Shown one piece after another: positions 60,323 through 64,000 of a stretch of 64,000 nt of DNA (within the stretch, counting starts at the first letter, position 1; each line of letters opens with the position of its first letter). The stretch spans positions 33,331 to 97,330 of the forward strand of contig NZ_JAIXST010000304.1 of assembly GCF_027484545.1 (NCBI RefSeq), given 5' to 3'. The notes beneath the pieces are model-generated. The model did no database searches and had not been told where the DNA came from. It saw nothing but the letters and a program-made list of their open reading frames with translations. A program made the position numbers and the translations under genes. This DNA is from Runella sp. Its GTDB lineage: Bacteria; Bacteroidota; Bacteroidia; Cytophagales; Spirosomataceae.

Positions 60323-61999
60323 ATGCGCTTATCTCTACCTCTATTCTACGGACTTATTTTGTTGTTTTTGAGCCCCTTATCGGCTTGGGCACAATCGGAG
60401 TCCGAAACCCCAAAGCCTAAACCGGTAAGAGTTTCGGGCGGGCTCAATGCCTACGCGGGGTTTTATCAGGCAAGCGGTATCGAAAACCGCAACCAAACGA
60501 CACCTTTCGGGCTGAGTGCCTCGGCAACCGTCTCCCTGCCCGGCGGTATTTCACTGCCGTTTTCGGTGATTGTGGGAAATCAGGGTGCGAGTTTTCGTCA
60601 GCCTTTCAATCAATTCGGCATCAGTCCTACTTACAAATGGGCCACAGTTCATGCCGGGTATCGCAACGTGCAGTTTTCGCCTTTCACGCTGGCCAGTCAT
60701 ACTTTTCTGGGCGGGGGAGTTGAATTGAATCCGGGTAAATTACGCATCGGTGCCGTGTATGGGCGTTTCAATAAAGCCATTTCTACCGATCTTGCCAATC
60801 CCGACCAAGCCATTCCTTCTTTCAAACGTACCGGCTATGCCGTTAAACTCGGCTACGGTTCCGCCGCCAACTACGTAGATGTGGTACTGCTGAACGCCGC
60901 CGACGATACCTCGTCCATTACCGGAACGCAGGGCATCACCCCTGCGCGTAACACGGTCTTGGGAGTTACTTCCCGATTGAGCCTTGCCAACAAGAATTTC
61001 AGTTTTGAAATGGACATTGCAGGAAGCGCTTACACCCGCGACACCCGCGCTCAATTGGTGCCGCTGTCGGACAAACCGCTGATGAAAACATTCAACTTGT
61101 TTATGCCCGCTCAGCTTTCGACCCAACTCACCACCGCCGCGCAATTGGGTTTAGGTTATCGCAGCAAAAATTTTGGATTAAAACTTCAATACAAACGCAT
61201 TGAGCCTAACTTCCAAACCATGGGTTCGTACTATTTTCAGAGCGATATTCAGAGTTTTACCATTGCGCCATCCATAAATTTACTCAATAGCAAATTACGG
61301 ATTATCGGAAGTTTGGGGTTGCAACAGGACAATTTGGCCAAAACCAAAAATGCCCAAACGGGTCGAAAAATTGGGTCGTTGGTGATTTCCTATAATCCTT
61401 CCAACGCTTTTGGAATTGACTTTCAATTTTCCAATTACGGGATCAGTCAACAGGCGGGATTACGACCCATTATTGATACCCTGCGGCTGGCGCAAAACAA
61501 CCTGAGCCTGATGGCAAATCTGCGCTACAGCATTCAGAACGAAGCCTTTTCGCACCTTTTTACACTGACGGGCACGCACCAGCAACTCTCTGACCTGAAC
61601 AATACTACCTCAGCCTTTACCCAAAATCAGAACCAAAACATCAATCTGGGCTATTTTCTGACCGAATTAGCGTTGGGTTGGAGCGCCAATGCGATGGTGA
61701 GTTATACCCAAACGGCCCTGCCACAAGATCAAATGGTTCGTTTTTACGGGCCAACGGTGGGAATAAGTTATCCGTTGTTGGATAAAAAACTGAATACCTC
61801 ATTCAATGCGAGTTATTTGATCAATCAGCAACTGGGAGTCACCGGTAAGGTGATCAATGCTTCGCTCAATGCAAGTTATCAGTTAGGAAAACGGCAAAGC
61901 CTTAACCTGCAACTTGGTTATCTCAACTCAAATACGGGACAACCCGACCAAAAATTCAATGAACTTAGAGGATCACTCGGCTATGGAATCTCGTTTTAA
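60323..61999 (+). CDS. Outer-membrane beta-barrel protein
   Basis: 558 aa. Signal peptide about 1-23 (LSAWAQ). The rest is composed of amphipathic beta strands from GGLNAYAGFY through GIQ/YQL repeats to the C-terminal GYGISF (terminal Phe), so a barrel of roughly 20 or more strands. No plug, POTRA or enzyme motif. It is immediately followed by the secreted 62085 gene; a partnership of barrel and surface protein is likely but unproven. Confidence 0.75.
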   Translation: MRLSLPLFYGLILLFLSPLSAWAQSESETPKPKPVRVSGGLNAYAGFYQASGIENRNQTTPFGLSASATVSLPGGISLPFSVIVGNQGASFRQPFNQFGISPTYKWATVHAGYRNVQFSPFTLASHTFLGGGVELNPGKLRIGAVYGRFNKAISTDLANPDQAIPSFKRTGYAVKLGYGSAANYVDVVLLNAADDTSSITGTQGITPARNTVLGVTSRLSLANKNFSFEMDIAGSAYTRDTRAQLVPLSDKPLMKTFNLFMPAQLSTQLTTAAQLGLGYRSKNFGLKLQYKRIEPNFQTMGSYYFQSDIQSFTIAPSINLLNSKLRIIGSLGLQQDNLAKTKNAQTGRKIGSLVISYNPSNAFGIDFQFSNYGISQQAGLRPIIDTLRLAQNNLSLMANLRYSIQNEAFSHLFTLTGTHQQLSDLNNTTSAFTQNQNQNINLGYFLTELALGWSANAMVSYTQTALPQDQMVRFYGPTVGISYPLLDKKLNTSFNASYLINQQLGVTGKVINASLNASYQLGKRQSLNLQLGYLNSNTGQPDQKFNELRGSLGYGISF

Positions 62000-62018
62000 C
62001 AGCCCCCTACTCCCCAAA
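62000..62018. repeat. Half C-rich repeat after the barrel gene
   Basis: CAGCCCCCTACTCCCCAAA directly after the TAA; one arm of the dispersed repeat family without its partner arm. Confidence 0.45.
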
Positions 62019-62023
62019 CTTTT

Positions 62024-62052
62024 GTTGGTTCGCGTTACAAACGCAAACCAAC
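62024..62052. repeat. Imperfect 13-bp hairpin in the leader region of the 62085 gene
   Basis: GTTGGTT-C-GCGTT / AACGC-A-AACCAAC around ACA. The word GGTTCGCGTTAC recurs 43 bp later. Confidence 0.55.
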
Positions 62053-62076
62053 AAATGCACTGTGCAGAGGTTCGCG

Positions 62077-62100
62077 TTACCCCGATGGCTATCGGGGTAA
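62077..62100. repeat. Perfect 10-bp hairpin TTACCCCGAT/ATCGGGGTAA
   Basis: Tetraloop GGCT. It overlaps the proposed ATG 62085, so the start codon would lie inside the stem. Confidence 0.6.
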
Positions 62101-63283
62101 ACCAACGTATCCTTCCGCTTTTGATTCTCCTTTTTCTGTTTGGATTGAAATCATTAGCCCAGGTACAGGTCACGGTCAATGTACTTCCTCCGTACAGCGC
62201 CTATTTGCAAGATTATCCCGGGCGGGGCAATCAGGTGCAGATTTTTGTGCGCAACACGACGAATGCGCCATTGGAGGTACGGTTTTTGGGAAACATCACG
62301 GGCGACAACGGCGTGGTTATTTCGACGCCTGTTAATTTTCGACCATTGGTGCCGTTGCGTTTGGGACCGTTGGAAAACCGTTTGTTGAGCCGTAACGACT
62401 TGGAAGGCTTGTTTGATTTGGGTCAAATTGAAGTGCAGGGCATTGACAAAGCGCAACTCTATCGCGGGTTGCCGCTTCCTGAGGGCAGTTATCAGTTGTG
62501 CGTTCGTGCCTTTGACAACCGTAGCAGTCGCCCACTTTCGCCGGAGTTTCCGTTGGGTTGTAGTGCGCCTTTTATGGTCAGAAGTGTAGAGCCGCCTATC
62601 ATCATTAATCCCGTTTGCGATAGTAAAATCGTTCCCAATACGCCTCAAAACGTCATTTTTTCGTGGACTCCCCCGCAGGAGTGTCGCCCGCGCAAGTACA
62701 ATATACTTTGCGCGTGATTGAATTGCCCGACATTCAGCCCGTGGCCGATAATGTATTTAATAATCAATCAAATGTAATCAGCAGTTTTCCAACCAGCAGT
62801 CAGGACAAAAAGCCTGCTTCCAAAATCACTAAAAATGAAACAACAGAGATCAAAGTAACTTCTTCCAATGTTCCCCTTGGATTTGACCCCAATGTATTTA
62901 TTGATGCGGTTGTGTTGCCGCCCTCGGGGGTGGAAGTGCGGAATCTCAAGGTAAATTCCTTTTTATACGGCTCGAGTCAGCCGCCGCTTAAAGTCGGCAA
63001 GCGCTACGCTGTGCGCGTACAGGCGATTGACCTGACTCGAAAAATCAATTTCCTGAATGAAGGAAAAAGTCCCGTTTGCTATTTTACCTACGGCGAAGAG
63101 GCCGCCCCGTTTTTCCCTTTAGGGCCTTCGTTTGCCTCAAAAGATACGACCGGTACCAAAGTAATGATGGCAAAATCGGGAAATTTACCCGTAAAATGCA
63201 CCTCCTGCAGTGCAAGCGAAATTTCTAATAAGCAAGTGGATAATGCGGGAGTGCTGAAAAGTAAATCGGCGACTATCGGGTAA
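62085..63283 (+). pseudogene. Secreted TANFOR-like/Fn3-type protein, frameshifted
   Basis: ATG 62085 gives MAIGVNQRILPLLILLFLFG... a good signal peptide ending SLAQ; starts at 61983 or 61914 overlap the barrel gene. The N-terminal domain (VTVNVLPPYSAYLQDYPGRG, FDNRSSRPLSPEFPLGCS) resembles the TANFOR domain of Bacteroidota surface proteins. The frame stops in ORF 61914-62717. ORF 62663-63283 continues it as PAGVSPAQVQYTLRV if one C is restored in CCCCC (62670-62674), giving FSWTPPAGVSP, a typical Fn3-like turn. The downstream part has Fn3/Ig-type strands. Real decay or a homopolymer error cannot be told apart here. Confidence 0.72.
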
Positions 63284-63377
63284 ACCTGAAAGGACCGTAA
63301 AAGACTAATCTCTAATAATGAGAATCTTCAAAACATGGTTTAAACCGACTTTTAAAGTATAGGTTAAAACACAACAA

Positions 63378-63411
63378 AAAAGCCTAATAATACATTGATT
63401 ATCAGGCTTTT
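63378..63411. terminator. Hairpin terminator beside the tRNA fragment
   Basis: AAAAGCCTAATAAT/ATTATCAGGCTTTT (one mismatch), flanked by A and T runs. It can serve the plus-strand gene and the minus-strand tRNA. Confidence 0.7.
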
Positions 63412-63418
63412 ACTTGAG

Positions 63419-63462
63419 CTACCGAGGCTGGGCTCGAACCAGCGACCCTCTGATTAACAGTC
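63419..63462 (-). tRNA. 3' fragment of tRNA-Asn (anticodon loop to acceptor end), probable att site
   Basis: Minus strand: GACTGTTAATC (anticodon GTT loop), GAGGGTC, T arm GCTGGTTCGAGCCCAGC and acceptor strand CTCGGTA. The D arm and 5' acceptor strand are replaced by unrelated sequence (TACCCATGGGCTAC). The gene is incomplete; the breakpoint is next to the anticodon loop, a classical crossover place for tyrosine recombinases. Confidence 0.75.
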
Positions 63463-63560
63463 GTAGCCCATGGGTATTTGTTGGCTTTTTGGTATTTATT
63501 GATTTATACTTAAATAGCCTGTAAATCAGTAGATTGTCATAATTATTTTATCGCTTCTTA

Positions 63561-63590
63561 TTGTTATTATGCGTTGATTCTGTATTTTTG
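63561..63590 (+). promoter_or_regulatory. Promoter of the integrase gene
   Basis: TTG (63561-63563), 19-bp spacer, TATTTTTG (63583-63590), a full match to the phylum consensus; start site expected near 63597. Confidence 0.55.
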
Positions 63591-63630
63591 TGGTGCAAGT
63601 AAACCCGATTTTCCTGAAAGTTGCACCACA
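63589..63630. promoter_or_regulatory. 10-bp perfect inverted repeat over the integrase start site
   Basis: TGTGGTGCAA (63589-63598) and TTGCACCACA (63621-63630), overlapping the -7 box and the expected start site. It is a candidate operator or recombinase arm site. Confidence 0.5.
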
Positions 63631-63647
63631 GAAAAACACCGCAACAA

Positions 63648-64000
63648 ATGGCAACTGTAAACCTATTTTTTGACACCCGCGCCACCGCTGAAAACGAGAC
63701 GGTACGCCGCGCGGGAATTATTAAAATCGTAATTACTCACAATCGGGTAAAACGGCTTTATACGACGGGGTTAAAAGTTACGCTCGACCAATGGCAACAC
63801 TTGCCCAAAAAAGGGGAAAAGTTGGACAATCGGATAAAGGATGAAATCCGCCTAAAGTTGTACGCTGACATTTACGACACCCCTAACGGATTCTACCGAC
63901 GTGCTGAAACCATTACCGAAACTTTAGGCGTAAACTTTGATTTTGACGCGTTCAAAGATGCCTTTGATAATTGGGGCAAGGATAAACCGTCCGATGACAC
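63648..64000 (+). CDS. Tyrosine-type recombinase/integrase, partial (N-terminal part)
   Basis: First 117 codons, open at the window edge. MATVNLFFDTRATAENETVRRAGIIKI... matches the N-terminal arm-binding domain of Bacteroidota integrases (Arm-DNA-bind_5), with LYTTGLKVTLDQWQ in the expected place, followed by the start of the SAM-like core-binding domain. The catalytic RHRY part is outside. It lies 186 bp from the tRNA-Asn fragment, the usual place for the integrase of a tRNA-targeting element. Confidence 0.88.
   Translation, partial: MATVNLFFDTRATAENETVRRAGIIKIVITHNRVKRLYTTGLKVTLDQWQHLPKKGEKLDNRIKDEIRLKLYADIYDTPNGFYRRAETITETLGVNFDFDAFKDAFDNWGKDKPSDD

Follow-up and report, generated by a model that had tools for sequence, protein, structure and literature searches.

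The right-hand edge of this stretch of Runella DNA raises the question of whether it runs into an integrative element inserted in a tRNA gene, as an earlier note on the same DNA had proposed, and of what kind of element this would be. The window, i.e. the whole stretch of 64,000 nucleotides that was analysed (G000:C214:33331-97330), ends where contig C214 stops (97330), so its right edge is also a contig end. We are confident that the final ~580 bases make up the left end of a small, helper-dependent integrative element of a tyrosine-integrase family, lying in a single-copy tRNA-Asn gene. The features on which this reading is built are as follows.

63376..63417, minus strand: native 3' flank of the original tRNA-Asn with its hairpin-plus-T-run terminator, on the host side (matches the tRNA-Asn 3' flank of G007)
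63418..63462, minus strand: displaced 3' fragment of tRNA-Asn, the left attachment junction (45 nt, 98% identical to the tRNA-Asn on contig C219)
63463..63647, no strand assigned: left end, with the P-arm and the promoter region of the integrase (homologous to the C188 and G006 left ends in a three-way alignment)
63561..63590, plus strand: putative Bacteroidota-type integrase promoter TTG-N19-TATTTTTG (same motif and spacing in the C188, G006 and G005 elements)
63590..63598, plus strand: arm-type site GTGGTGCAA (alignment with C188 and G006)
63621..63629, minus strand: inverted arm-type site TTGCACCAC (alignment)
63648..64000, plus strand: 5' end of a predicted tyrosine-recombinase integrase gene, 117 codons (cut by the contig end)
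63882..64000, no strand assigned: 119 bp that recur unchanged at the end of contig C188 (a repeat shared by two related elements, at which the assembly broke)

The segment 63418-63462 (minus strand) matches the intact tRNA-Asn of this genome at 44 of 45 nt (98%, E 2.5e-15 in a search of the 7.1-Mb genome) and spans the 5' strand of the anticodon stem (GACTG), the anticodon loop, the T arm and the acceptor stem. The gene is cut at the anticodon stem, on its 5' side, and the remainder of the tRNA is absent there, ARAGORN calling no whole tRNA at these positions. The native terminator remains attached to the fragment, and the two together match the native tRNA-Asn 3' flank of G007 (GAGCTCAAGTAAAAGCCTGATAATCAA), a species of the same genus that has a single tRNA-Asn and no match to the window integrase; the one change, GGTAGC for GGGAGC, falls in the acceptor stem of the window fragment. 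This match of flank and terminator indicates that 63418-63462 is the host's own original 3' half. A chance origin of the fragment was considered and is ruled out by the E-value and the matching native flank. With fragment, native flank and integrase frame all found, the window has the displaced 3' tRNA fragment adjoining an integrase by which elements of tRNA-targeting tyrosine integrases are recognised; the earlier proposals that tRNA-Asn was the target, that it was cut at the anticodon stem-loop with its 3' part left behind, and that the element is oriented rightward out of the window are all borne out. The host gene to the left of the junction is uninformative for tRNA-Asn synteny, its orthologues in G002, G003 and G006 lying elsewhere. 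Further left, the overlapping ORFs 61914-62717 and 62663-63283 resemble one gene (61914-63283) with a one-base shift, the presumed frame break lying near a C run at about 62668.

The integrase begins with an ATG at 63648, 185 bp beyond the fragment (the earlier note had put the start 186 bp away), and its frame is open up to the window end. Pfam finds no domain in the 117 visible amino acids, which are 94% identical to the copy on C188 and 78% identical to a complete 463-residue integrase in G006 that has Phage_integrase (E 2.7e-17) and Phage_int_SAM_5 domains. On the strength of this latter identity the window protein is classed, from sequence, as a tyrosine recombinase whose catalytic domain lies outside the assembled part. 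The gene also appears to have its own promoter, as anticipated, since the putative motif at 63561-63590 is kept in related elements, four in all. The conserved form of this motif, TTG-N19-TANNTTTG, overlaps the GTGGTGCAA arm-type sites, and we infer that the integrase may regulate its own expression via these sites. A second tandem GTGGTGCAA copy, present in C188 and G006, is missing from the window copy, and the alignment reveals a short in-frame insertion near the N-terminus of its integrase; the lost arm site, the insertion and the changed acceptor-stem base may together signify decay of this copy.

The same genome holds a second such element. Its left end is contig C188, beside a 3' fragment of tRNA-Met, and its right end is contig C124, with paired arm sites, a terminator and an intact tRNA-Met; the ends on C188 and C124 have 64 nt in common, including the tRNA-Met 3' half, so that this sister copy has at its far end an intact tRNA with the same 3' half as the displaced fragment. 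A pattern search located the paired arm motif exactly at the two ends of the tRNA-Met element and nowhere else in this genome. The presence of two related copies with an identical 119 bp explains why the assembly broke at 64000 and the rest of the window integrase is missing, and since the window stops at a contig end shared with C188, its element cannot be read further. The genome was searched for the missing part with the protein, with the whole G006 element as DNA and with the arm-site pattern; these searches gave only C188 and C124, and neither the remainder of the integrase nor the right end of the element was found in the assembly. A DUF5681-like protein of the C124 element was considered as a small terminase subunit (TerS) and dropped, as G005 has, besides its DUF5681-like protein, a distinct and true TerS. 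At L115:6880-7190, directly upstream of the tRNA-Met on C124, lies a small GIY-YIG-like ORF, and past it a partial second tRNA 5' half (GGGCCCATAGCTCAGTTGGTTA), as if a small insertion had duplicated the start of the tRNA.

What the complete element may look like is seen in its relatives. In the near-complete genome G006 an element of 6.98 kb starts from the same tRNA-Asn junction and finishes at an intact tRNA-Asn; both of its ends have a 47-nt tRNA-Asn repeat, a 29-nt arm-site repeat and paired GTGGTGCAA sites. The layout of the junctions implies that this intact tRNA-Asn is composed of the host 5' half and the element's 3' half, and that the terminator behind it is also the element's. From the integrase onward, the genes encode a DUF6934 protein, an Xre-type regulator, an unknown protein, an HTH_17 protein, a regulator of an 82-aa family, an AAA_25 ATPase and a protein with a BT4734-like primase domain. 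An integrase matching the G006 protein (E <= 1e-60) is carried by 78 of 223 genomes of the bacterial family, and in the sequences searched this integrase clade was found only within that family. Among the loci taken around the closer integrases, 12 complete elements of 6.3-26.8 kb could be bounded, with a tRNA repeat of 45-99 nt at both ends, mostly accompanied by arm-site repeats. Their targets are tRNA-Asn, Met, Pro(GGG), Thr(TGT), Thr(CGT) and Arg(ACG), and the integrase always adjoins the displaced tRNA fragment; an intact tRNA with the same 3' half lies at the far end in G006 and in other relatives. Across the relatives the gene content comprises an integrase, an HTH_17 protein, a VRR_NUC-like nuclease, an AAA_25 ATPase and a BT4734-like primase, counts of gene presence being lower bounds as several loci end at 20 kb or at contig ends.

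The closest complete relatives measure 6.3-8.0 kb. The elements of G006, G005 and G167 and the C124 part of the tRNA-Met element have an integrase with excisionase-like and replication genes and no capsid genes, as satellites do; in the first three of these, all genes run in one direction from the integrase onward. Family searches detected no relaxase, conjugation or capsid genes in these four, and the closest complete relatives have none of the conjugation genes that the earlier note had expected. Judged by these relatives, transfer of the window element would be helper-dependent and not conjugative; the relatives themselves look like helper-dependent hitch-hikers, some of them probably phage-carried.

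A second copy of the 44-nt tRNA sequence had been predicted, and the sole intact tRNA-Asn that ARAGORN found in the genome, G000:C219:1641-1718, is that copy (44 of 45 nt), the assembly holding exactly one tRNA-Asn fragment and one intact tRNA-Asn. The prediction that it would mark the other end of the same element probably does not stand in that simple form, because its 3' flank belongs to another type. On its 5' side lie rsmG and other host genes in an order conserved across the genus; on its 3' side are a DUF3871 gene and arm-type repeats (TTTGATACACAA, twice). A complete 19-kb element of this DUF3871/TTTGATACACAA type in G001 has the same paired sites at both ends, a different integrase and cargo resembling a type I restriction-modification system. 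Given an intact gene flanked by the other type and a window element whose right end is unassembled, the two elements are likely to stand in tandem, or to have been joined by deletion as a hybrid, rather than to form a single element. Relics of window-type elements at tRNA-Asn in G001 (the right arm), G002 (an integrase C-terminus) and G005 (a toxin-antitoxin-like gene pair and the right arm) show that the site has been struck repeatedly. In the G005 case (L039), the collapsed element keeps a DUF6934/Xre-homologous region by the right arm, perhaps a toxin-antitoxin-like remnant. In G004, an element of the G001 type lies between two full-length tRNA-Met genes (L056 and L063; G004:C1:2217156 and 2238664), of which the one on the integrase side stands behind the element arms, apparently without a promoter of its own.

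The relatives and the tRNA-Met sister, which between them display both junction types, the native tRNA-Asn flank and full elements, make the following course of events the best explanation. The integrase would have inserted a circular element, by recombination, at the anticodon stem-loop of the single-copy tRNA-Asn. The host 5' half would thereby have been joined to a 3' half and terminator carried by the element, keeping a working tRNA at the far end, and the host's original 3' half and terminator would have been left beside the integrase as the fragment now in the window. Such an element would carry an integrase along with replication genes and an excisionase-like HTH protein, and would depend on a helper in place of transfer or capsid machinery of its own. 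We infer excision, replication and helper type, and the gene content of the window copy.

Within this explanation, a narrower version holds that the window element and its sister are phage satellites, which excise, replicate and are packaged upon infection by a helper phage, some members redirecting packaging with a TerS of their own; we give this almost an even chance. An element in tRNA-Pro in G005, in the same integrase clade as the window's (tree support 100/100), has a P27-type TerS beside its right arm sites (Terminase_4 E 1.1e-9, phrog_83 E 1.1e-21) and neither a terminase large subunit (TerL) nor capsid genes. A TerS 97% identical to it lies next to tRNA-Met in G007, in a right end of similar build; in viral contigs of IMG/VR, one of which measures 55 kb, a 65% identical TerS is followed by TerL; and the relatives L140, L143 and L168 have a TerS of another type. 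The presence of TerS without TerL in some relatives suggests phage satellites, and the size of 6-8 kb with an integrase, an HTH_17 protein and a primase recalls the PICMIs (PMC10803314). However, the G006 element and the C124 part of the tRNA-Met element have no recognised TerS, the genes all run in one direction, unlike the divergent int/stl versus xis-rep layout of phage-inducible chromosomal islands (PICIs), and a sister clade of the integrase family has MobC and a relaxase instead. That clade raises another reading, an integrative mobilizable element (or a relative of one) that has no relaxase and uses a conjugative helper via an oriT. At least nine elements of the integrase family do encode a MobA/VirD2 relaxase, at least eight of them with MobC/NikA, and NBU1, NBU2 and Tn6031 of Bacteroidota, likewise with tyrosine integrases, insert at tRNA 3' ends (PMC5704250). 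The closest elements (G006, G005, G167 and the C124 part) nevertheless have neither relaxase nor MobC, and the relaxase bearers fall mainly in a separate, well-supported sister clade with another replication module, so that we regard this reading as unlikely.

The remaining alternatives concern the state and extent of the window copy. It could be the dead remnant of an old insertion that lost its right part, by deletion or replacement, as the element of the other type entered the rebuilt tRNA-Asn: a tandem arm site is missing, the tRNA fragment is mutated, the assembly has these arm sites in no right end but that of the tRNA-Met element, and collapsed relics lie at tRNA-Asn in G002, G005 and G001. 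We are nonetheless rather doubtful of it, as no break interrupts the 117 codons in view, the final 119 bp agree fully with the sister copy, pointing to recent exchange or constraint, and the missing part may just have escaped assembly. A single composite element connecting the window with the tRNA-Asn of C219 would fit the count of one fragment and one intact gene, but complete relatives with arm repeats detected at both ends have equal arm sequences there, whereas the arm sites are GTGGTGCAA at the window end and TTTGATACACAA at the C219 end, the latter paired at both ends of the G001-type element; this we consider quite improbable.

The helper-dependent element that we favour is compared most readily with islands inserted in tRNA genes by tyrosine integrases, which it resembles in the anticodon stem-loop site, the 3' half supplied by the element, the integrase beside the displaced fragment and the direct repeats at both ends. 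There is no fundamental difference from such islands; these elements also bring their own tRNA terminator, and the window locus itself is an ordinary tRNA insertion. PICIs have a divergent control region between int/stl and the xis-rep operon. They resemble the present elements in having an integrase at one end, excisionase-like and replication genes and, in some members, a TerS without TerL; the present elements differ in being one-directional, with no divergent int versus xis-rep control region in G006, G005 or G167, in having no known helper and in that many members are without TerS. Descriptions of PICIs cover Gram-positive and other Gram-negative bacteria (PMC6092414, a paper whose main text makes no mention of Bacteroid-). 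PICMIs of Vibrionaceae (about 6 kb) are of comparable size and share the core of integrase, PF12728-type HTH and primase genes (PMC10803314), but lie at fis, whereas these elements lie in tRNA genes, not at fis, and two copies can co-occur per genome. NBU1/NBU2 and Tn6031 are alike in integrase and target; the relaxase and MobC of NBU-type elements are absent from the closest elements, the window clade being without a relaxase and its sister clade with one. Nor do the close complete relatives of 6.3-8.0 kb have the conjugation genes of an integrative conjugative element.

It is conceivable, though we lean somewhat against it, that one integrase lineage with a shared integrase-excisionase-replication chassis has given rise both to TerS-using satellites borne in tRNA genes and to relaxase-bearing elements spread through conjugation, with the window element and its tRNA-Met sister in the satellite branch, an apparently undescribed satellite family in the phylum. 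No report of such satellites in Bacteroidota was found in the limited open-access literature consulted; the integrase had no match in IMG/VR and the AAA protein none in plasmids. The family is more useful than the locus, as it offers small, well-bounded elements in closed genomes, among them carriers of a phage packaging gene and carriers of a relaxase, with restriction-modification and CRISPR-Cas cargo. If these are phage satellites, that lifestyle would extend to a bacterial family for which it is not reported in the literature searched, and the presence of both kinds of transfer gene on a common chassis would open to study a switch between phage-borne and conjugation-borne spread.

Among the complete tRNA-Asn relatives, L142 (G127:C2) has genes for Cas3, a CRISPR_assoc (Cas6-type) protein and others about 10-20 kb from the integrase, which look like a type I-E CRISPR-Cas set. 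In a 55-kb viral contig, the TerL gene (L181:356-3109) appears to hold an intein with a homing endonuclease.
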